From positions 124,001 to 188,000 of the IMG/VR virus record IMGVR_UViG_3300031787_007614: a stretch of 64,000 nucleotides of DNA; one strand, 5' to 3'. This stretch comes from a virus. A program made the position numbers and the translations under genes. Under the pieces are notes generated by a model, which did not search any database, was not told where the DNA came from, and worked only from the letters and a program-made list of their open reading frames with translations. How positions within the stretch are numbered: position 1 is the first letter of the stretch; every line of letters starts with the position of its first letter. Of this stretch, positions 776 through 30,625 are shown piece by piece.

Positions 776-876
776 TTGCTAAATTTTTTAATCGTGTGTT
801 TGAACTGTTGGTAGCCTGGGGCGACACTGTGCATGAGTACAGAATGAGCCGCGCCAGTCGTACCTGGTACTATTAA
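772..876 (+). CDS. 34-residue micro-protein
   Basis: A very short frame (starts [10 protein letters not shown], ends RTWYY) coupled by an ATGA overlap to the gene before it. It has an amphipathic N-terminal helix and an Arg/Tyr-rich end. It finishes 4 bases inside the 3' end of the convergent clpP gene. The AAAGGA upstream and the tight overlap support it. Function unknown. Confidence 0.5.
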
Positions 877-1460
877 TCTCGTTTGATTAATATTTTATCA
901 GCAAGGCCATATTCAACTGCTTCGCCAGCAGTCATGAAATTGTCACGTTCCATATCAGCTTTGAGTTGTTTGTGGGGTTTGCCAGTGTGTTTGACATAGA
1001 TATCAGTCAACACAGTTTTCCAACGCAATAGTTCTCGAGCTTGAATTTCCACGTCTGTGGCCTGACCCGATGCGCCGCCCAGGGGTTGATGGATCATGTG
1101 GCGTGCATTGGGCAGGATGTAGCGATTGCCCTTGTCGCCAGCAGCGGCCAACAACGAGCCCATGCTGGCAGCCTGCCCCATCACAATAGTGTGAATTTTG
1201 GGCTTGATAAAGTTCATGGTATCGTAAATGGCCATACCTGCTGTGACTGATCCGCCGGGTGAGTTGATGTACAAGCTGATGGCTTTGTCGGGGTTGTCAC
1301 TTTCCAAAAACAATAACTGCGCACAGATCAAGCTGGCTGTGTGTTGGGTGACTTCTCCGTCCAGCATGATCACACGATCTTTGAGCAAGCGGCTGTAAAG
1401 GTCGTAACTGCGTTCGCCTCGGGAAGTGTTTTCGATAACAATTGGCACTAGATTTGACAT
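873..1460 (-). CDS. clpP: ClpP ATP-dependent protease proteolytic subunit
   Basis: A 195-residue serine protease that forms the ClpP barrel and degrades proteins unfolded by ClpX or ClpA. The triad is complete: Ser99 in GQAASMGS, His124 in MIHQPLGG, Asp173 in ERDNFMT. Length matches the mature bacterial enzyme. The start at 1460 (MSNLV) has AGGAG ahead; the ATG at 1493 overlaps the -10 element and is rejected. The window also encodes a ClpX (23851-25056), a ClpS (22492-22803) and a second ClpP-type gene (3089-3664), so the phage may carry its own proteolytic machine. It could form mixed barrels with host ClpP. Confidence 0.95.
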
Positions 1461-1483
1461 GGGGTCTCCTGGTTGATTGCATA

Positions 1484-1512
1484 AGTATAGCATTATTCTC
1501 GGAAGAAAACAA
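1484..1512 (-). promoter_or_regulatory. Probable promoter of clpP
   Basis: TATACT on the minus strand at 1484-1489 with a weak TTGTTT 17 bp upstream. Predicted +1 at about 1477 leaves a short leader with AGGAG before the ATG at 1460. Confidence 0.5.
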
Positions 1513-3092
1513 TGCGTGATCTACTCAATTTACTCGACAACATACTGACTGAAGAAGTCAACGCTCAATTTGCCCCTGAACTTGAAGGCATGAAAGACGT
1601 GATTTCTAGAAGAATCAAGGATCTTCCAGACGACCCTGCTACTGCAAAAGCTCTTAAAGAAATTGAAGATCTGCTGTCGCATATTTCACATGGTGGAAGA
1701 ATGGGATCAATCAGTAAAGAAATTGAAGCTGTGCAAGATCAAGCTGTGCAAGATGCTAAAAAAGTTCTGGCAAGACTAGCAATGAACATCATGGAAGAAG
1801 TTGGTGCCACGCCGTTGCAACGTGCTGATTTTTTCAATACCTGGAAAAGCGATCGGTTGGTCAACACCCAGGCCCTGCTGAGCAATGAAAAAGTTGACTT
1901 TCCTGTGGTATTCACTGGTTATACTGAAAATCCAGTCACAAAAGAATTTGTTGACGAAGTTATGATGATCCAGGAATTAGGCATGGGACGAGGCGAATTT
2001 GGATTGAACGTACTGAGCAAAAGTATTACTGTGGCAGGCAAAAGTTCAAAACAAGACAATGACGAGGACAGCGGATCTAAAAAGGGTGACTTACAAATCA
2101 AGTCAGGTGGTAAAGTTTACCAAGTAGAATTAAAAACTGAAATGGGTGGTGCTGCCAGATTTGGAGATCAAGAAGTTAGGCCAGCAGAAGGATTTGAAGC
2201 ATCCGCAGTGACGTTGAATAATTTTGTGAAATCTCACAAGGCATACAAAAATCTCAAACGCAAATTGTCCGGCAGCGGCATGAATTTGAACCAGGCCATA
2301 GACTTTAACAAACTTCTTTCTCCAGCAGACAGTGATAAATTCCTGGCACTGACTCAACGGTGTATATCTCTCATATTTGGCAATATCAAAGGCAGTAGAA
2401 AAGAGTATGCCACAAGATTGAAAAAAAATATAAATGGCATTATGACAGCTATCGAAACTGGCGACAGCGGATCGGCTGCACAACAATGGAGTCAGGCCAG
2501 TTTCAATTATTACATGAGCAAAAAAGAAGACGACGGCGTGCTCTATCTTAACTTGAACAGCAAAGTATTCATATACTACAATGATGCAGAACAATTACTG
2601 GCACAAGGACTGAGATTCCACGCCAGTACTCCATACATTAGTGCCACAAAAGATCCTGTTAGATCAGTGTATCCACAGATTGGAGTTCAACAAACATCAT
2701 TTGGTGGTGACGCGGCTCGACAAGGATTGACACAGTTGTCCAAAGGAAAAAATCCTATGGCAGCTTCAACATTCAATTCTGCGTTGACTGATTGGGTCAT
2801 GACATTGGCAGGCAGACGTGGCATCAACAATCAAAAGTTAATAGCGCAAATTGCCAAGTCAACCTTGAACATGATAGCTAACAAAACACCAAAAGAGCAA
2901 ATTATTCCTGCACTAGAACGCCAATTTCCACAGTTGGTTCCAAGAGGGGCCGTGCAGCCAGTGGCACCTGCTGTGGCACCTGCTGTGGCGCCTGTTGGTA
3001 GACTCACAGGTCCGGGCGTGAAAACAGCTAGAAACCCAGCACAACCTCAGGTGACTGCTGAAGTGTTGGGCAGAGAACGCAGACGTAATTAA
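1512..3092 (+). CDS. Large phage protein with possible PD-(D/E)XK nuclease motif
   Basis: 526 residues, function not established. Around residues 191-210 there is a pattern like a PD-(D/E)XK nuclease core: Asp193 in KKGDLQI, then Glu206-Leu-Lys208 in YQVELKTE. The N-terminus (1-95) is helical and charged. The C-terminal 50 residues hold a Pro/Ala linker with three near-copies of VAPA. It is transcribed divergently from clpP and its end overlaps the convergent ClpP-like gene by 4 bases. It could be a virion-associated nuclease or a structural protein. Confidence 0.6.
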
Positions 3093-3664
3093 CGAGTCAC
3101 TTGGCTGATGTGATCACAGATACCCAGCCGCAGGGCATCATCCGCACCCAAATAAACGTCATGCGGTGGCAACAGATGTTGCTTGATTTGGTCTTCGCTT
3201 AGACCTGTACAATCTATATAATGCTGTACCATGCGTTTTTGTGTGAGCTCAAACTCTTTAATTGTGGCCAATAGTTCATGATGTTTGCCATCACTGCCCC
3301 AGGCATACTGGTGACTCATGATTGACGTATTAGGAGTGAGTGTTCTGCGTCCTGGTGTTCCTGCCAAAAAGATCAACAATCCGGCACTGGCAATTTGCCC
3401 CAGCCCCACAGCTTTGATTGGAATGACCGAACTGCGCATGACATCAATCAAGGCAAATGCTGAACTCATGTCTCCACCTTCTGAGCAAATCATTAGCAAG
3501 AGTTCTTTGCGTTTTTTCTTGGCCACAAAGTTCTCGTGCAGGATCCATTCAATTATGGGTTTGATGTTATCATCATCAACCTCGCCCATAAAAACATACA
3601 TTCCAGCGTCGGCCAAGGCTTGGGTGTGAGTCTGCTCAATTTGTAGGGAGTTATCTGTGGTCAT
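3089..3664 (-). CDS. Second ClpP-type serine protease
   Basis: 191 residues, clearly in the ClpP/crotonase fold but diverged from the clpP at 873-1460. The expected triad is present: Ser93 in GLGQIASAG, His118 in SIMSHQY, Asp169 in PPHDVYL followed by a helix like that of ClpP. The Gly-rich strand SEGGD replaces the usual NSPGG. It may form a heteromeric barrel with the first ClpP, as two-ClpP systems do in some bacteria, or act as a prohead-type protease. Its start at 3664 lies behind a perfect TATAAATA element, so it is probably expressed late, unlike the first clpP. Confidence 0.85.
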   Translation of the reverse strand: MTTDNSLQIEQTHTQALADAGMYVFMGEVDDDNIKPIIEWILHENFVAKKKRKELLLMICSEGGDMSSAFALIDVMRSSVIPIKAVGLGQIASAGLLIFLAGTPGRRTLTPNTSIMSHQYAWGSDGKHHELLATIKEFELTQKRMVQHYIDCTGLSEDQIKQHLLPPHDVYLGADDALRLGICDHISQVTR

Positions 3665-5835: not shown

Positions 5836-5864
5836 ATTATAGCAGATTGGCTTTTATTGGTCAA
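5836..5864 (-). promoter_or_regulatory. Consensus sigma70-type promoter, leaderless gene
   Basis: TTGACC, 17 bp, TATAAT on the minus strand with TG before the -10. Predicted +1 is 5829, the A of the ATG. It overlaps the stop codon of the gene at 5861-6187. Confidence 0.85.
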
Positions 5865-6217: not shown

Positions 6218-6246
6218 AGTATAGCAGATCGAGAATTTCCGGTCAA
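6218..6246 (-). promoter_or_regulatory. Sigma70-type promoter
   Basis: TTGACC, 17 bp, TATACT with TG before the -10 on the minus strand. Predicted +1 at 6211. It starts directly behind the terminator of the phasin gene. Confidence 0.8.
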
Positions 6247-6248
6247 CC

Positions 6249-6277
6249 CAAAAAAAAGCCCTACATGCAGTAGGGCT
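6249..6277 (-). terminator. Rho-independent terminator of the phasin gene
   Basis: 8-bp stem AGCCCTAC / GTAGGGCT with a 5-base loop, followed on the minus strand by eight T. Confidence 0.9.
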
Positions 6278-6294: not shown

Positions 6295-6567
6295 TTACTT
6301 TTTAGAAGTTGCTGTGTAAGCCTTCATGATGCCTTCGCCAAATTTCACATAGTCAAATTTGGTGGTTTCTTGCACGGCTTTGACAGTTTCGCTGGCAACA
6401 GTGGTTGCGGCGTCTGTGGTAGCTTTGAATGCTTTCTTGGTGTATTCGGCTTGATTGTCAATGAACTTGATCATTGCGTCTTTTACCAATTCGTTTGTGA
6501 CGAAAGTGTTAACCCAAGTTCTTTTCCCGGTTTGTACGGTGTCGATGAATGCGTCTGCTGTAAACAT
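6295..6567 (-). CDS. Phasin-like protein
   Basis: 90 residues resembling the phasin family, the amphipathic helical proteins that coat polyhydroxyalkanoate granules. The sequence is almost all helix-forming with a heptad-like Ala/Val/Thr pattern (about residues 40-75, ATTVASETVKAVQ) and no Cys. It is shorter than most bacterial phasins (about 110-190 residues). It stands alone with its own promoter (6629-6658), AAGGAG and a strong terminator, so it should be well expressed. It could redirect carbon storage or act as a small chaperone. A different four-helix protein cannot be excluded. Confidence 0.6.
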   Translation of the reverse strand: MFTADAFIDTVQTGKRTWVNTFVTNELVKDAMIKFIDNQAEYTKKAFKATTDAATTVASETVKAVQETTKFDYVKFGEGIMKAYTATSKK

Positions 6568-6628
6568 AGTGTTCTCCTTAATTAAGCAAGTTGCGATAGG
6601 ACCCGGCCTATCCAGCGTCCTATGTGCT

Positions 6629-6658
6629 ATTATATATGATAATTATGTTGCATTGCAA
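6629..6658 (-). promoter_or_regulatory. Promoter of the phasin-like gene
   Basis: TTGCAA, 18 bp, TATAAT on the minus strand. The roughly 55-base leader can fold a small hairpin (GATAGG / CCTATC, 6595-6611) before AAGGAG. Confidence 0.65.
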
Positions 6659-6708
6659 CAATTATTTCTAGTGGATGGTCACTAAAAACCAAATCCAAAA
6701 ACGGCATA

Positions 6709-6732: not shown

Positions 6733-7002
6733 ATGTTAAAAGCTATTTTTAATTGGTTTACCAGCAAGCCAGTTCCAGGCACAGAAGCACCTGTTGTAAA
6801 AGCTGAATCTGCACCTTACAAAGTTGAACCACCACCAGTTGTTAAAGTGAGTGAACCAGCACCTGTTGGTGACCATGTAAGGGTAGAAGCCACTGCACCA
6901 GTTGAGTCAGCACCAAAAGCCAAACGAGCTCCTGCTGTAAAGAAGGCTGTTGCACCCAAGGCACCTGCTAAACCTAGGGCAAAAAAAGCACCTAAACAAT
7001 AA
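6733..7002 (+). CDS. Basic Ala/Pro/Lys-rich protein
   Basis: 89 residues. The first 12 form a short hydrophobic helix (MLKAIFNWF). The rest is low-complexity Ala/Pro/Val/Lys, ending in a strongly basic tail with repeated PKA/KKA units (residues 63-89). The tail resembles histone H1-like or DNA-condensing proteins, while the N-terminus could touch a membrane. It precedes the curli-type operon and is separated from it by a hairpin. Function unknown. Confidence 0.6.
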   Translation: MLKAIFNWFTSKPVPGTEAPVVKAESAPYKVEPPPVVKVSEPAPVGDHVRVEATAPVESAPKAKRAPAVKKAVAPKAPAKPRAKKAPKQ

Positions 7003-7056: not shown

Positions 7057-7497
7057 ATGAAAACAACAATAACAACATTAGCCTTGATGCTGGTTACAGC
7101 TGGAGCCACCGCCACTGAACTAGTACATCAATTTAATTCGCCGTCGTTCAGTGGTATCGGTTACAGTAGTCACGTCCTTACAATCGAACAACTAGAGGCA
7201 ACACGCCGTCAGAAACTACGAGAAGAAGAAGCAAGCAGGATAGCCAAAGCCGAGCTTGCTGCCAAACAAACCAATATAGCTAAATTTCTAGTCAACGTAG
7301 AAAGTCGCATCTACGCTCAGTTGAGCAAACAGTTGGCAGACTCGCTGTTCAGCGGTGGGGGCACCACAGGCAGCATGGATTTCCAAGGCACCAACATCAG
7401 TTGGGTCAAAACTTCTACTGATGTAACCATGACCATTCTAGAAAGCAATGGCAATCGCACAGAGATCACTGTGCCACTAGCGAGTTTTGCATTTTGA
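7057..7497 (+). CDS. csgF: CsgF-like curli assembly factor
   Basis: 146 residues. A signal peptide (residues 1-20) is followed by the family signature ATELVHQFNSPSFSG, which matches the start of mature CsgF, the part that inserts into the CsgG channel. A Gln/Arg/Glu-rich helix and a beta-rich C-terminus follow. Length is close to E. coli CsgF (138). In bacteria CsgF sits at the cell surface on the CsgG pore and couples curlin nucleation to secretion. It is the first gene of the operon csgF-csgG-curlin-FecR, with a TGATG overlap to csgG. Confidence 0.85.
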   Translation: MKTTITTLALMLVTAGATATELVHQFNSPSFSGIGYSSHVLTIEQLEATRRQKLREEEASRIAKAELAAKQTNIAKFLVNVESRIYAQLSKQLADSLFSGGGTTGSMDFQGTNISWVKTSTDVTMTILESNGNRTEITVPLASFAF

Positions 7498-8321
7498 TGA
7501 AAGCACTGTTTTTATCATTGCTGTTGGCTGTGTCTGGGTGTGCCAGTTTGGATCAAACTCAATTTGATGTACAGCCACCTCAATTGGTGCCACGACAAAA
7601 TTTGTTGGCTGTGTTGCCCGAGTTAGATGGTCCAAGAATACCTGTTGCTGTATATGGATTCATGGACAAGACTGGTCAGAAAAAAAACAACGACAAGCTG
7701 GCGTTATTTTCTACAGCGGTAACACAAGGTGCTGAAGTGTTTTTGATCAAGGCCTTGCAAGACACCCCAAACTGGTTCACAGTGGTTGAACGTGTAGGCC
7801 TGGACAACTTGATCAAAGAGCGTCAACTGATTCGCAATCAACGTGAAGTGTACGAAGGCAAAGATGCCAAGCCGCTCAAGCCTTTGTTGGTAGCTGGACT
7901 CATGATTGAAGGTGGCATCATTGGTTATGACACCAACATAACGTCTGGTGGTCGAGGAGCCAGAGTGCTAGGCATTGGTGCCAGTACTCAATATCGTGTG
8001 GACGAGATTGTGATATCCATGCGAGTGATTTCAGTCAACACTGGAGAAGTGTTGCTGAATACGGCTGTGAGCAAGACGGTGTTTAGCACAGCTCACAATC
8101 AAGGTGTTCTCAAATTTGTTGACCTTGGCACAACCAGTGTTGAACTTGAGAACGGGGCTGCTATTAACGAGCCCACCACATACGCTGTTCGAATAGCCAT
8201 CGAGCAAGCGGTGTACGAAATGATCCAAGAAGGAGCAAAACGGAAACTTTGGTCATACAAAAAGGGCACAAGCCCAAGGAGTGCGGATGAGGATAGTAAC
8301 TTGCCCACAAAACAAAAATGA
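7497..8321 (+). CDS. csgG: CsgG-like outer-membrane curli secretion channel
   Basis: 274 residues with a lipoprotein signal and lipobox (VSGC), then the CsgG fold: RIPVAVYGFMDKTGQ, NWFTVVERVGLDNLIKERQ and a C-terminal helix EQAVYEMIQEG. Length matches E. coli CsgG (277). CsgG forms a nine-fold outer-membrane pore. The two membrane-hairpin regions are present with Gly/Ser-rich sequence. The ATG at 7497 overlaps the csgF stop. Its stop overlaps the curlin start (ATGA). Confidence 0.93.
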   Translation: MKALFLSLLLAVSGCASLDQTQFDVQPPQLVPRQNLLAVLPELDGPRIPVAVYGFMDKTGQKKNNDKLALFSTAVTQGAEVFLIKALQDTPNWFTVVERVGLDNLIKERQLIRNQREVYEGKDAKPLKPLLVAGLMIEGGIIGYDTNITSGGRGARVLGIGASTQYRVDEIVISMRVISVNTGEVLLNTAVSKTVFSTAHNQGVLKFVDLGTTSVELENGAAINEPTTYAVRIAIEQAVYEMIQEGAKRKLWSYKKGTSPRSADEDSNLPTKQK

Positions 8322-8944
8322 AAATAACAAGATCTCTCAAAGGGACAATATTTGCATTGAGCATGATGGCTTTATCGCATGTTCAAGCTTCAAATGAAAT
8401 TTACATAGAGCAAGTTGGTGATAATGCCACAGTGACTTTAAAACAAGCAGGCAGCAACAATACCATTGGCTCTGCCCTAGCACCGGCCTTTATTGGTGGC
8501 GGCCAAAACGTAGTTTACGTTGAACAATCTGGCAGTAGCAATCAACTGGCCATGTTGGTCAACGGCGCTGGCACTAATGTGACGTTAACAATCACAGGCG
8601 ACAGCAACCAACAGACCATCACATGCGGAACCAGCATCAGCGCCAGCTGTAGCGGATCTGCAATCACGCATACCATAACAGGTGACAACAATGATGTGCA
8701 AAGTATCCTAGGTACCAATGGTGGAGCGCATACCAGTAACATCACAGTGCTAGGTGACTACAACCATGTGACTCATAGCAGTTCAGGATCAGGCGCCAAC
8801 TCAGCCACAATCAATGTTACTGGGTCAGGCTCAGGTGCTACCCCAAATGCAATCACTGTATCACAGAGTGGTATGAATACTCAAAGTGCAACCGTCAATG
8901 CTTCGGGCAATAACATTAATATCAGTATTATTCAGTCTGACTAA
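8318..8944 (+). CDS. Curlin-like repeat protein (CsgA/CsgB type)
   Basis: 208 residues with a signal peptide (to about residue 24). The mature part is made of irregular repeats of about 20-40 residues with the curlin pattern of Gln/Asn/Gly (IYIEQVGDNATVTLKQAG, VVYVEQSGSSNQLAM, ITGDSNQQTIT, ITVSQSGMNTQSATV), rich in Ser, Thr, Asn and Gly and low in charge. Two Cys (CGTSISASC) are unusual for curlin. It is a plausible substrate of the CsgG/CsgF pore and may form amyloid. It is longer than E. coli CsgA (151). Confidence 0.85.
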   Translation: MKITRSLKGTIFALSMMALSHVQASNEIYIEQVGDNATVTLKQAGSNNTIGSALAPAFIGGGQNVVYVEQSGSSNQLAMLVNGAGTNVTLTITGDSNQQTITCGTSISASCSGSAITHTITGDNNDVQSILGTNGGAHTSNITVLGDYNHVTHSSSGSGANSATINVTGSGSGATPNAITVSQSGMNTQSATVNASGNNINISIIQSD

Positions 8945-9974
8945 TACTTGGGCTGGAGTAGGCAAGGTCACTGAACAAACTGGCCCTACTGAAATAGTAC
9001 GGGCTCGAAAAAGCATATCCAGTGCTGTAAATACCGCAGTGGAAATGAATGACACCATTGTCACAGCCCGATCCCGAGCTGAACTTACATTTGATGATGC
9101 TACCAAAGTCAAAATTACTGAACAGTCAAAGCTGATAATTGATGACTTTGTGTATGACCCAAAGTCAGGCACAGGCAAGTTGGCCATGAAAGTGGCTCTG
9201 GGCACGGCTAGATATGCATCAGGACAGATTGCCAAGAACTCTCCACAACAGGTTGCAGTCAGCACACCCACAGCTTCTATTGCTGTGCGTGGCACAGACT
9301 TTTCAATGACCGTGGACGAGCTTGGGCGCAGTCTAATAATGCTGTTGCCCAGTTGTGATGACAAAACATGTGTAACAGGTGCTATTGAAGTATCCAATCA
9401 ATCTGGTAGCATACTAATGACACAGGCCTATCAAGCTACTTTAGTTTCCACAGTAGATACACCGCCAACCAGACCAGTTGTGTTGACCATTGATCAGGCC
9501 AACATCAACAACATGCTGATCATCAGCCGGCCCCGAGAAATTAGCGAAGAACATAGAGACAACAAAAAAGATGTTCGAACAGCGTTAGACGTTAACTTTC
9601 TTGATCGAGACTTTTTAAAACCTGCAGATTTAGACAATCGGTTGGATGCATTCAACCGACTGGATCGCAATGAACTAGAAGATGAGCTGTTGCCCAATGT
9701 GTTGGATGCCGTAAATGCAGCCTTGTCGGCCACGCAAGAAGCCATGTCAACTACACTGAGCATGCTGCCAGGCTATGACGCTGGCTCAGGATTAAAATGG
9801 CGGGTAGATGATCAAGAACAGCTGGGTTTAACCAGATACAGCACTCATATTTTTGAACTAACTGTTCCCAAAGAGCAAGGGGCAATACTGGATCTCCAAC
9901 AGGACGGCATTCCTGTATATCAAAAAATCAACACAGGTGGAACCACCACAATTACCATTGTCCAAAGTCAATAA
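8898..9974 (+). CDS. FecR-domain periplasmic protein
   Basis: 358 residues from the ATG at 8898 (a GTG at 8886 is possible). The signal peptide ends near TWA. Residues about 20-150 form a FecR domain: VGKVTEQTG, a short strand region, LTFDDATKVKITEQSKL, and the closing VSTPTASIAVRGTDF typical of the family. The C-terminal half is helical with Asp/Leu/Asn-rich repeats (LDNRLDAFNRLDR). FecR-domain proteins with curlin and CHASE2 cyclases occur together in bacteria. The start lies inside the curlin gene (46-base overlap), so translation is coupled. Confidence 0.85.
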   Translation: MLRAITLISVLFSLTNTWAGVGKVTEQTGPTEIVRARKSISSAVNTAVEMNDTIVTARSRAELTFDDATKVKITEQSKLIIDDFVYDPKSGTGKLAMKVALGTARYASGQIAKNSPQQVAVSTPTASIAVRGTDFSMTVDELGRSLIMLLPSCDDKTCVTGAIEVSNQSGSILMTQAYQATLVSTVDTPPTRPVVLTIDQANINNMLIISRPREISEEHRDNKKDVRTALDVNFLDRDFLKPADLDNRLDAFNRLDRNELEDELLPNVLDAVNAALSATQEAMSTTLSMLPGYDAGSGLKWRVDDQEQLGLTRYSTHIFELTVPKEQGAILDLQQDGIPVYQKINTGGTTTITIVQSQ

Positions 9975-21709: not shown

Positions 21710-22498
21710 ATGAAAGTTGCTTTTGACCTAATTTCTGATCTCCACATTGACACCTGGAACGAACCCTTTGACTGGACTGATCGAGCCACCAGTCCATACG
21801 CTATTGTTGCCGGTGACATTGCTGAAGATAGAAAATTGTTATCTGACGCATTGACCAATCTAAGTCGCTGTTATCAAGCTGTGTTTTTTATAGACGGCAA
21901 TGACGAGCATGCTAGATATTATCACAGTCTTAGCGACAGCTACAAAGACCTAACCAAACGCATTGCCAAAATATCTAATGTGGTTTATCTCCAGGACAAT
22001 GTGGTGGTAGTTGATGGTATTGGCATATTGGGCACCAATGGATGGTGGGGATTTGATTTTGAACTCAGCATTGATCCTACTCAAAGTTCTTTGTGGTGGC
22101 AAGAAAAAGAAAATCTCACCAGTGACATTGCTAAAAAGATATCCAGGATGGCTACCAATGATGCGGCGTACATGATAAACTCTGTGAAACGCTTGCAATC
22201 ACACAAGGATGTCAAACACATACTCATGGTCACACATACTGTGCCCTGTCAGCAGTTGATTGAGCATGACATAGATCTTGAAGGCAGCATGCGATTCAAC
22301 ATGATGGGCAACAGAGACATGATGCAGGCTATGGCAGCAGACGACGGGAAAAAGATTCATACCTGGTGTTTTGGACACTATCATGGATCAGTAGACCAAA
22401 TACGCCACGACGTGAGGTTTGTAAACAACTGTCGTGGGCGCAGTGGTTCGCCATGGTCACATCATGTGTACCATCCTCGCAGAATTGAAATTCAGTGA
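21710..22498 (+). CDS. Calcineurin-like metallophosphoesterase
   Basis: 262 residues. The di-metal motifs appear in order: ISDLHID (8-14), VAGDIAED (33-40), IDGNDEH (about 62-68; usual GNHD/E changed to GNDEH), VTHTVP (about 175-180) and CFGHYHG (about 223-229). Length fits bacterial and phage phosphodiesterases. Substrate cannot be read from sequence; nucleotides, cyclic nucleotides or phosphoproteins are all possible. If it acts on cAMP it would oppose the cyclase at 11521-13569, but that is speculation. It ends with an overlap into the convergent clpS. Confidence 0.85.
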   Translation: MKVAFDLISDLHIDTWNEPFDWTDRATSPYAIVAGDIAEDRKLLSDALTNLSRCYQAVFFIDGNDEHARYYHSLSDSYKDLTKRIAKISNVVYLQDNVVVVDGIGILGTNGWWGFDFELSIDPTQSSLWWQEKENLTSDIAKKISRMATNDAAYMINSVKRLQSHKDVKHILMVTHTVPCQQLIEHDIDLEGSMRFNMMGNRDMMQAMAADDGKKIHTWCFGHYHGSVDQIRHDVRFVNNCRGRSGSPWSHHVYHPRRIEIQ

Positions 22499-22803
22499 AC
22501 TTCTTCTGGTTCTAATTTGATTTGTAACGGATAACTTTGTGAACGAGCTTGCAAGGTAACTTCGATGCCTTTTTGTTCGGCAATCTCATAAGGTAGCACA
22601 GCAACCACAGCACTTCCAGCTTCGTGAATGTCAACTGTGATTTGTTCAGCAGATTCTGCGGTGTAATCAAAATACTCAACCAAACTACTGACCACAAATT
22701 CCATAGAGGTCTGATTGTCATTGATATAAATCACGCGAAACAACGACGGTGGTCGCACTGCTTCTTGTGTGCGAGTTCGTGATTTCGTTTCAGTTTGAGC
22801 CAT
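22492..22803 (-). CDS. clpS: ClpS adaptor protein
   Basis: 103 residues. ClpS delivers N-degron substrates to a Clp unfoldase. The core IYINDNQTSMEFVV matches E. coli VILVNDDYTPMEFVI, with Asn-Asp-Asn where bacteria have Asn-Asp-Asp; Thr, Met and the later His (DIHEAG) are kept. It lies next to hsp20, bS21 and clpX. Bacterial ClpS normally works with ClpA, and no clpA is present, so it may retarget host ClpA or serve the phage ClpX. AAGGAT precedes the start. Confidence 0.9.
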   Translation of the reverse strand: MAQTETKSRTRTQEAVRPPSLFRVIYINDNQTSMEFVVSSLVEYFDYTAESAEQITVDIHEAGSAVVAVLPYEIAEQKGIEVTLQARSQSYPLQIKLEPEEVH

Positions 22804-22820
22804 TTTTTATCCTTGTTAGC

Positions 22821-22851
22821 AGTGGCAGCACTGTGCTGCCACTGTATTTAC
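22821..22851 (-). promoter_or_regulatory. Late-type motif next to a strong hairpin, clpS leader
   Basis: TAAATAC (minus strand, 22845-22851) directly followed by the perfect hairpin AGTGGCAGCA-CAG-TGCTGCCACT (22821-22843). No T-tract follows, so this is not a simple terminator. Confidence 0.5.
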
Positions 22852-22860
22852 ACAATTATA

Positions 22861-23319
22861 TTAGTTTGTGTAGGTGATCGCAATAGTCTTTGGCTTGGCA
22901 TCTTCGGGCACTTCACGTTTCAAGTGAACGCTTAGAATACCAAGTTCAAGGTGTGCATTACTGATCTCCACATGATCAGCCAACTGAAATTCCCTACGGA
23001 AACTTCTTTCGCTGATGCCTTTGTGCAAATATTTTGTTGTAGTATCCTCATTCTCCACAGTCTCACGACTGTGCTTACCTTCAACAATCAAGAATTTTTT
23101 GTCCTTGGTTACTGTGAGGTTATCATGCCCAAAGCCAGCCACGGCCATGCTGATCATGTACTCATCTTCATTGATTTGTACAATGTCATAGGGTGGGTAG
23201 TTGGTAGAGGATTGTTGAGCACTCACACGCATGAGTTCATCAAACATGCTATCGAAACCGATACCAAATTTGGTGAGTGTGGGAATGTCGAAACTACGAA
23301 GGGTGAGAGTTTTTGTCAT
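22861..23319 (-). CDS. Small heat-shock protein, Hsp20/IbpA family
   Basis: 152 residues with an alpha-crystallin domain (about 40-135): YDIVQINEDEYMISMAVAGF, LTVTKDKKFLIVEGKH, the SFRREFQLADHVEI strand and LGILSVHLKREVPE, followed by a short C-terminal tail with the IAI anchoring motif. An ATP-independent holdase. Related small heat-shock proteins are common in aquatic T4-like phages, where they probably assist particle assembly. Good AAGGAG before the start and a hairpin leader at 23356-23379. Confidence 0.93.
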   Translation of the reverse strand: MTKTLTLRSFDIPTLTKFGIGFDSMFDELMRVSAQQSSTNYPPYDIVQINEDEYMISMAVAGFGHDNLTVTKDKKFLIVEGKHSRETVENEDTTTKYLHKGISERSFRREFQLADHVEISNAHLELGILSVHLKREVPEDAKPKTIAITYTN

Positions 23320-23355
23320 TTGTTTTCTCCTTTATATAAGCAAGATGACTTGTAA

Positions 23356-23379
23356 TGTAGCCCCACTATGGGCACTACA
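23356..23379 (-). promoter_or_regulatory. Leader hairpin of hsp20
   Basis: TGTAG/CTACA and CCC/GGG pair around an AT-rich loop, 36 bases ahead of the ATG. It does not cover the AAGGAG, so a thermometer role is not evident. Confidence 0.35.
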
Positions 23380-23406
23380 ACATTATTTATTATACACGAA
23401 GAAAAA

Positions 23407-23634
23407 CTATATTTTATTATTTAGGTCAGTTATCAAGCGGTAACTTGTCCATTCTGGATGTTCTGGATGTGGCACCCAGGTCATTGCAAACAGTGTGTAA
23501 GATTCGTCTGAATCAAATGTAACCCGCAAGGTGTATTTGAATACTTTAGTACGGTATTTGATATTGTATTTTGCTGCCCATGCACTCAGTTTGTTTCGAA
23601 CAAAGTCTGAGGACAACCGAAACTCAATGTACAT
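23407..23634 (-). CDS. Small hypothetical protein
   Basis: 75 residues (MYIEFRLSSD start), beta-rich with many aromatic residues (FKYTLRVTFD, YTLFAMTWVP). It follows the bS21 gene with a one-base stop-start overlap. Not recognised. It may be a co-translated partner of bS21. Confidence 0.55.
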   Translation of the reverse strand: MYIEFRLSSDFVRNKLSAWAAKYNIKYRTKVFKYTLRVTFDSDESYTLFAMTWVPHPEHPEWTSYRLITDLNNKI

Positions 23635-23858
23635 CAGTACAGTTTTTTAGGTAGTGCTTGCTCGGCTAGTTGTTTGCGCCAGCGATTTTTGGCAGCACTG
23701 CGTTTGAGTTTGCGAGCAGTAGTGGGCTTGATGTAGTGCTCTTTTTCACGGAGATCATTGAGTATGTTTGACGCTTGAATTTTTTTCTTGAGTTTTCTCA
23801 GCGCACGTTCAATATTGTTGTCCTGAACCAACACTGATCTACCATGTAATTTACCCAT
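23634..23858 (-). CDS. rpsU: Ribosomal protein bS21 homologue
   Basis: 74 residues, very basic. The bS21 pattern is present: V-x-x-x-N-IERALRKLKKKI (near 14-27), then LREKEHYIKPTTARKLKRSAAKNRWRKQ. bS21 sits at the 30S platform beside the anti-Shine-Dalgarno and mRNA start. Length and spacing match bacteria (about 70). Phage-encoded bS21 is known; it may exchange into host ribosomes and favour phage mRNAs, here including leaderless ones. Overlaps clpX by 8 bases. Confidence 0.93.
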   Translation of the reverse strand: MGKLHGRSVLVQDNNIERALRKLKKKIQASNILNDLREKEHYIKPTTARKLKRSAAKNRWRKQLAEQALPKKLY

Positions 23859-25056
23859 TGACTTTCTTTAACTCCTCGGGAGTATTTACCATGTTTTCGT
23901 CAATTTCTACATGGGCGATGTTTTGTTTAGTATACTCGCCTAGCTTGTACATGTGTGGCAGTAGCACACGTTCCAGTTCACTGTGTAGTCCACGAGCACC
24001 AGTTTTGTTCTTGATGGTATTGTCGGCAATTTTGACCAGGGCCTCTGGGGTAAAATCCAACACAATCTTGTCTTGGTCAAACAGCCATTTGTACTGTTCT
24101 ATATAACTGTGTTTGATATCAATCAATATCCTAATGAGATCATCTCTAGTTAAATCTTGCAATGCTACCCAGGTTGGGAAACGACCAACAAATTCTGGAA
24201 TCATACCAAAGCGAATCAAATCGTCAGGTGTGACTTGGTCTAGGTGCGTGGTGGTATCCGAGTTTACTTTGGCACCAAACCCTATGCTGGTTCCACGCAC
24301 TCGACTTTTTACAATGTTATCCAGGCCCACAAATGCGCCGCCTGCAATGAACAGGATATTGGTGGTGTCAATTTCAACTGTTTCACCTGATGGATGTTTG
24401 CGCCCACCTTGTGGAACAATTCTACACTTGGTTCCTTCGACTAGCTTGAGCAGAGCCTGTTGTACACCTTCACCTGATACATCTCTTGTGATGGATGCTG
24501 ATTCCGAACGACGAGAAATTTTATCAACTTCATCTAAAAACACAATGCCACGTTGGCATCGATCAACGTCATTACCAGCAGCCGCAAACAGTCTACTAAT
24601 CAAACTTTCCACATCATCGCCAACATAGCCTGCTTCAGTAAGACTGGTGGCGTCAGCAATCACAAACGGCACGTCAAGATATCGTGCTACCGATCTTGCC
24701 AACAGAGTTTTTCCCGAACCAGTGGGCCCAAGCATGAGAATGTTGACTTTTTCAATTTCGGTATGTTTGTCATGATTGTTGATGCGTTTGTAATGATTGG
24801 CAATTGCCACGCTCAACACAATCTTGGCTTGATCCTGACCAATTACGTATTGATCAAGATGTGTTTTGATCTCAATTGGATTCAATGTAGGGGATGTTTT
24901 TGTTTCTTTAACTATTAGTTCTTCTTTGAGAAGAGTTTCACATAAATCCACACATTCATTGCAAATTGCAACACCTTCGCCCACAATTAGTTTGGCCACT
25001 GCGTCTTTATGTTTGTTACAAAAACTGCAGGTGTCAATGGTTTCAGTCTGTTTCAT
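23851..25056 (-). CDS. clpX: ClpX ATP-dependent unfoldase
   Basis: 401 residues. N-terminal zinc-binding domain with Cys10, Cys13, Cys32 and Cys35; AAA+ core with Walker A GPTGSGKT (110-117), pore loop GYVG (143-146), Walker B FLDE (173-176), sensor and arginine-finger regions (EFVGRFP, GARGLHSELE). The IGF loop that docks on ClpP is intact (TSIGFGAKVN), so it can bind ClpP. Slightly shorter than E. coli ClpX (424). It is encoded with bS21 and behind a coiled-coil membrane protein (25053-26558) with a 4-base overlap. Confidence 0.97.
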   Translation of the reverse strand: MKQTETIDTCSFCNKHKDAVAKLIVGEGVAICNECVDLCETLLKEELIVKETKTSPTLNPIEIKTHLDQYVIGQDQAKIVLSVAIANHYKRINNHDKHTEIEKVNILMLGPTGSGKTLLARSVARYLDVPFVIADATSLTEAGYVGDDVESLISRLFAAAGNDVDRCQRGIVFLDEVDKISRRSESASITRDVSGEGVQQALLKLVEGTKCRIVPQGGRKHPSGETVEIDTTNILFIAGGAFVGLDNIVKSRVRGTSIGFGAKVNSDTTTHLDQVTPDDLIRFGMIPEFVGRFPTWVALQDLTRDDLIRILIDIKHSYIEQYKWLFDQDKIVLDFTPEALVKIADNTIKNKTGARGLHSELERVLLPHMYKLGEYTKQNIAHVEIDENMVNTPEELKKVNG

Positions 25057-30596: not shown

Positions 30597-30625
30597 ATTA
30601 TAACAGATTGGGAATTATTGGTCAA
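30597..30625 (-). promoter_or_regulatory. Consensus sigma70-type promoter
   Basis: TTGACC, 17 bp, TATAAT on the minus strand with TG before the -10. The leader from +1 to AAGGAG is identical to the one downstream of the promoter at 30970-30998. Confidence 0.85.

Follow-up and report, generated by a model that had tools for sequence, protein, structure and literature searches.

Is a 90-residue reading frame in a large uncultured phage the gene of a phasin, and if so, what would govern its expression? Phasins are the coats of granules, and some of them have chaperone activity; the bacterial repressor PhaR, which senses polyhydroxybutyrate (PHB) granules, controls phasin genes. The initial annotation of the 64,000-nucleotide stretch of DNA analyzed here (the window), which belongs to a virus record of 364,404 bases, had proposed such a gene with its own promoter and terminator. 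The reading that we consider probable, albeit well short of certain, is that this is the gene of a minimal phasin-like protein, placed under the host's PhaR at its promoter and with a leader that carries a ROSE-type RNA thermometer. The features concerned are collected in Table 1.

Table 1. Coordinates of the phasin-like locus and of associated features in the window
Feature	Position	Strand	Basis or remark
Intrinsic terminator of the phasin-like gene	6257..6277	(-)	8-bp stem and T run directly after the stop codon
Phasin-like CDS	6295..6567	(-)	ORF, ATG start, 90 aa; helices 4-22, 26-69 and 73-88 in the model
5' leader with ROSE-type RNA thermometer structure (candidate)	6568..6624	(-)	ROSE_3 alignment, covariation, model R1
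Leader hairpin 2, CUUGCUU...AAGGAG (Shine-Dalgarno against UUGCU, one G unpaired)	6574..6590	(-)	Pairing, folding
Leader hairpin 1, ATAGGAC-G-CTGG...CCGG-GTCCTAT	6596..6623	(-)	Covariation
-10 box TATAAT of the phasin-like promoter	6629..6634	(-)	Kept in relatives
PhaR-box-like palindrome TGTTGCAATGCAACA in the -35 region	6646..6660	(-)	Fit to published PhaR motifs
Second palindrome TAGTGGATGGTCACTA, candidate operator	6669..6684	.	TAGTG-N5-8-CACTA, upstream of the phasin-like promoter
Divergent gene with Lys/Ala/Pro-rich tail, same intergenic region	6733..7002	(+)	ORF
Phage Hsp20, 152 aa	22861..23319	(-)	PF00011, E 1.5e-16
ROSE-type leader of phage hsp20	23320..23388	(-)	R1 27.4 bits, E 0.001; sole other R1 match in the window
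TTGACC-17-TATANT promoter copies	225-253, 515-543, 5836-5864, 6218-6246, 30597-30625	all (-)	

The reading frame is as the initial annotation gave it, and it is coding, as judged from the existence of intact full-length relatives (80 contigs among the matches listed, 89 confirmed) and from residues that never vary: the C-terminal motif KFDYxKFGEGIMKAY is invariant in a 50-member alignment, as are YTK and other residues. The bias of substitutions toward third codon positions also counts, since most differences from close relatives fall there (e.g. 20/29 for relative L003). The proposed terminator was borne out, and comparable elements lie downstream of many relatives. The promoter was likewise found, with its TATAAT box and a weak -35-like TTGCAA (promoter match 10/12). 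Note that the stronger consensus promoter at 6246-6218 is that of the next gene and is one of five copies in the window of a repeated phage promoter, TTGACC-17-TATANT, of which 0.13 would be expected and whose spacer is conserved. Absent from the initial annotation were the leader structure at 6568-6624 and the two palindromes at 6646-6660 and 6669-6684.

A profile search places relatives of the phasin-like protein, full-length, on at least 222 IMG/VR contigs, many of them longer than 200 kb. The initial annotation had remarked that phasins are rare in phages; among the large uncultured phages of this lineage the protein is not rare. INPHARED phages yielded no homologue. No family member was found in GTDB genomes with the patterns used, and we found no report of a phage-encoded phasin in the open-access literature. 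An apparent second copy of the family in L099, L100 and L126, a short neighboring ORF, proved spurious, the leader region having been read as an ORF.

The evidence that the protein is a phasin is mixed. The window protein has no match in Pfam or NCBIfam at E≤10 and none in PHROGs, and the Phasin_2 (PF09361) and Phasin (PF05597) models match nowhere in the 364-kb genome; the initial annotation had itself named a missing phasin match by profile search as a result that would refute its proposal. The structure prediction that it had called for lends weak support, the AlphaFold2 model (pLDDT 88, pTM 0.53) being all-helical, with three helices and no strands. Among 50 relatives, Phasin_2 appears below threshold in nine (best E 0.0026) and TIGR01985 in three (best E 0.0015), beside other, unrelated helical families. 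Profile-profile comparison with ten PhaP-type phasins from plasmids gave no support (hhalign probability 0.3%); hhalign on a larger phage set gave 2%. A profile built from five small phasins of four alphaproteobacterial genomes gave a clearer signal, if still a weak one: the median score was 7.9 bits for 80 distinct phage proteins, 1.6 for 800 shuffles and -1.6 for the 1,385 unrelated ORFs. The phage family ranked above these ORFs and above almost all composition shuffles (AUC 0.99 against shuffles), although relatedness among the phage sequences inflates the p-values of this ranking. The best phage protein reached E 1e-4, with a collinear alignment over residues 8 to 58; the reverse search, with the phage-family profile against bacterial phasins, was weak (best E 0.004). 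The mean hydrophobic moment of the phasin-like protein (0.30, compared with 0.20 for shuffles and 0.29-0.35 for bacterial small phasins) indicates an amphipathic character. The nearest viral model goes by the name 'Phasin [uncultured Caudovirales phage]' (35% identity, E 4e-3), which may have been assigned automatically. PDB sequence and fold searches returned helical matches at chance level only and were set aside. Altogether, the phasin identity is not backed by the curated models, which are silent on the window protein, but it is favored by a weak, consistent profile ranking, by the helical model and by the PhaR-type operator described below. We conclude that the protein is probably a phasin relative, if a remote one: phasin ancestry is plausible but remote because the small-phasin profile ranks the phage family high and the curated models give no match.

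It is very improbable, in our estimation, that the protein is instead a virion, nucleoid-like or DNA-packaging protein with no link to storage granules. What could be cited for this is that 18 of the 50 relatives match HU-type models (best E 0.003, weak and chance-level), but these matches are at the noise level, like those of many families in the same list, and the gene is solitary, with its own terminator and predicted thermometer control, and lacks a structural-operon setting.

The second part of the question concerns the 5' leader. Once aligned, the upstream regions of 81 distinct relatives display strong conservation. The best Rfam match of the window leader is ROSE_3 (RF02523), aligned over all 69 positions with 24.1 bits; leaders in related records G005, G007, G010 and G018 score 30-36 bits (E 5e-6 to 2e-7). 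The ROSE_3 matches fall on phasin-like or hsp20 leaders, the leading ones having E-values of 2e-7 (36.5 bits), 1.4e-6 and 4e-6. The RF02523 gathering score, 43 bits, is reached by none of the leaders tested (24.1 for the window, up to 36.5 for relatives).

The two-hairpin structure is supported by covariation. Across 71 leaders, 88.4% of cells are paired, double changes number 96 against 34 in shuffles, and the covariation score is 0.339 versus 0.232 in shuffles (0/500), with partners slid out of register giving at most 0.134. In hairpin 1, 91% of cells are paired and seven of the ten main pairs have changed on both sides yet still pair; in hairpin 2, the corresponding figures are 88% and two pairs. 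RNAalifold alone finds hairpin 1 only; hairpin 2, which contains the Shine-Dalgarno, is short and its sequence is conserved. This terminal hairpin, CUUGCUUAAUUAAGGAG in the window, follows in the window and in relatives the rule that defines ROSE elements (PMC11182007), namely that the Shine-Dalgarno is paired with U(U/C)GCU while one G is left bulged. By eye, one class of leaders, UUUUGUCU...AGGAAAA (e.g. L011 and L036), has both arms changed and the unpaired G kept.

On average, energy folding favors sequestration of the Shine-Dalgarno. For the 71 leaders with their start codon at 20 C, pairing of the Shine-Dalgarno with the upstream arm is 0.65 versus 0.17 in shuffles; adding coding sequence lowers Shine-Dalgarno pairing across relatives. 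The window's own hairpin 2 closes weakly, with the Shine-Dalgarno unpaired at 55% at 10 C and 81% at 55 C, in calculations whose nearest-neighbor energies leave the non-canonical pairs of ROSE elements unscored.

We used a covariance model, R1, derived from the phasin-like leaders alone. R1 gives 80.9 bits to the window leader, which is among its training sequences, and finds the phasin-like leader in 20/20 records, many of these leaders being in its training alignment. Outside the phasin-like genes, R1 points to hsp20: in the 20 records searched, the element lies directly upstream of Hsp20 in 16/16 Hsp20-bearing records, two of these leaders being weak under R1 (E 0.2-0.3) and the two-hairpin layout being readable in all 16. 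Related record G003 has a third ROSE-type element (L264:470-541; G003:C1:120769-120840; E 2e-5) before a GroES-like gene, whose product was identified by reading its sequence. A weak R1 match in G012 at 125257 was treated as chance, as it lies on a strand without a gene there. When applied to 42 bacterial hsp20 loci, R1 gave matches at E<1 in seven (best E 2e-4), all on the gene strand and either spanning the hsp20 start or lying a short way upstream of it; the loci belong to Alphaproteobacteria and to one Sphingobacteriales assembly. Because R1 finds bacterial hsp20 leaders, the phage element appears to be of the same kind as the cellular hsp20 thermometers. Note that we rejected an assignment of the host via Hsp20, since the best cellular match of the phage protein is just 46%.

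The leader could also be a structured control of translation during phage infection that answers to a protein, a small RNA or the availability of ribosomes, and not to temperature, its likeness to ROSE being superficial. The ROSE_3 scores below the Rfam cut-off and the weak predicted melting of the window sequence would suit this explanation. We nevertheless judge it improbable, given the full-length ROSE_3 alignment with U(U/C)GCU and bulged G, the element's presence before hsp20 in 16/16 records and the fact that the phage model picks up hsp20 leaders of bacteria.

The third line of evidence, concerning transcription, comes from the promoter. A palindrome of TGCRNYGCA type lies near the -35/-10 region of the phasin-like promoter, and this sequence, TGTTGCAATGCAACA, of which the genome has one perfect copy, agrees with published PhaR motifs from Sinorhizobium meliloti (PMC12542648), Ralstonia eutropha (PMC12849132) and Bradyrhizobium diazoefficiens (PMC6201568), species whose phasin promoters have PhaR sites that overlap the -35 or flank it. 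The S. meliloti motif is present exactly in 35/81 phage promoters versus 0.4% of random stretches from the same contigs, and with one mismatch in 55/81 versus 1.5% of random stretches; between roughly a fifth and a third of these promoters have no clear box. One B. diazoefficiens site, TGCATTGCAACA (PMC6201568), is identical to the site in several phage relatives, e.g. L037. As a positive control, upstream regions of alpha- and betaproteobacterial phasin genes carry the same core (e.g. ATATTGCAGTGCAACAT in L348). The second palindrome is of a type, TAGTG-N5-8-CACTA, found in the promoters of 42/81 distinct relatives as against 0.8% of random stretches. Further TTGCANTGCAAGA palindromes exist in the same genome (G000:C1 226794, 230297 and 301260); they were discarded as PhaR-linked sites, with no obvious PHB-related gene or common function nearby. 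The PhaR-type palindrome is found in 0/16 phage hsp20 promoters. As no PhaR gene was found in the 20 phage records and no PhaC (PHA synthase) gene in this phage by Pfam, the sensor would be the host's.

These results bear on the main alternative: instead of a phasin, the gene would encode a small phage chaperone or stress protein with a helical fold of its own, which would join Hsp20 in a phage heat-shock group, and the palindrome would be the operator of another regulator. The initial annotation had offered a chaperone role as an option, one now favored by the predicted RNA thermometer shared with phage hsp20. The same direction is indicated by the lack of matches to curated phasin models, by the occurrence of the thermometer before both hsp20 and groES, by the presence in the phage of genes for ClpX, ClpS and two ClpP-family proteins and by the invariant KFDYxKFGEGIMKAY, which was not noticed in aligned bacterial small phasins. 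However, the palindrome fits the PhaR sites of three species and bacterial phasin promoters, the hsp20 promoters are devoid of it, and the likeness of the protein to small phasins is collinear. We therefore regard this alternative as rather unlikely, while giving it serious weight.

A phasin-like protein under dual control might work as follows. The short amphipathic helices probably attach to hydrophobic surfaces, be they those of PHB granules in the host or of unfolded protein. Host PhaR, when bound to the -35 palindrome, probably blocks transcription, and PHB granules would titrate PhaR so that the phasin-like gene is transcribed. The last ROSE hairpin would hide the Shine-Dalgarno and keep translation low until warming or stress opens it. 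Since the same thermometer would control hsp20, the two genes could form a small phage heat-shock group. Transcription under PhaR and translation under temperature control would make sense for a protein whose role is to cover hydrophobic surfaces. The sequences themselves show the covarying leader, its occurrence before hsp20 as well, the match to the operator and the protein family; from these patterns we infer the response to temperature, the binding of PhaR, the binding of granules or client proteins and a host that stores PHB. We put forward more tentatively a broader proposal, which we find quite possible but would not bet on: this huge-phage lineage would read both PHB storage, through host PhaR, and temperature, through ROSE, would deploy the phasin only when granules coincide with heat or stress, and would govern hsp20, and in one relative groES, by the same RNA switch as a phage heat-shock regulon.

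Thermometers, phasins and PhaR sites are already known, each separately. Like the small alphaproteobacterial phasins of the Phasin_2 type (PF09361, TIGR01841/TIGR01985), the phage protein is small, all-helical, amphipathic and weakly collinear with them around xYTKKxF, with a PhaR-type box at the promoter; unlike them (about 110-190 aa), it has 90 aa, no curated match and its own KFDYxKFGEGIMKAY, is phage-borne and is preceded by a predicted RNA thermometer. The leader resembles ROSE_3 (RF02523) in having two hairpins, the first GAUGCCG/CGGGUC-like, in presenting U(U/C)GCU with an unpaired G to the Shine-Dalgarno and in preceding hsp20. It differs from known ROSE elements, which a 2014 review linked in every case to small heat-shock genes of bacteria (PMC4166951), in being phage-borne, in standing before a phasin-like gene as well as hsp20 and in scoring below the gathering threshold, and is known here from sequence. 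Likewise, the promoter has the TGC-centered palindrome with single-base spacer in the -35 region that characterizes PhaR-controlled promoters (S. meliloti phaP1/phaP2, B. diazoefficiens phaP1/phaP4, R. eutropha phaP1), but lies in a phage genome with no detectable phaR, its box being recognized by sequence match. Only a handful of phage RNA thermometers were listed in a 2024 paper (lambda cIII, SP-beta blyA and gut phage sigma70; PMC11182007). As in these cases, including the sigma70 elements of gut Caudoviricetes (PMC11182007, PMC4166951), a phage gene has a temperature-related leader structure; in contrast to the two-conformation switch of lambda cIII and to fourU elements, the structure predicted here is of ROSE type, precedes at least two genes of one phage and is conserved lineage-wide. 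What is new is thus the predicted occurrence of a ROSE-type thermometer in phages, for at least two genes of one lineage, together with a candidate PhaR-type operator on a phage gene; in the open-access literature we found no report of a phage ROSE-type thermometer or of its pairing with such an operator on a phage gene. If the conserved ROSE-type element acts as predicted on at least two genes of one lineage, phages run a heat-shock regulon. If the PhaR operator is genuine, the phage taps the host's carbon-storage sensor, and the operator offers a direct test of phage management of PHB granules. Both claims can be tested without isolating the phage.

Several neighboring genes deserve mention in their own right. 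A divergent ORF of the kind found in the window lies within 1.3 kb upstream in 42/76 loci, compared with 9% of random 1.3-kb stretches; the N-terminus of its product is amphipathic, membrane-spanning in some relatives, and its basic tail recalls those of PhaF and PhaM. Beyond it, a curli-like secretion set occupies 7057-9974(+); it comprises CsgF, CsgG and a FecR-domain protein, besides a protein whose curlin repeats score below threshold. Hsp20 itself belongs to a protein-quality module at 22492-25056(-), where ClpS, Hsp20, a ribosomal S21-like protein and ClpX adjoin each other, and two ClpP-family proteins are encoded elsewhere in the window, at 873-1493(-) and 3089-3664(-).
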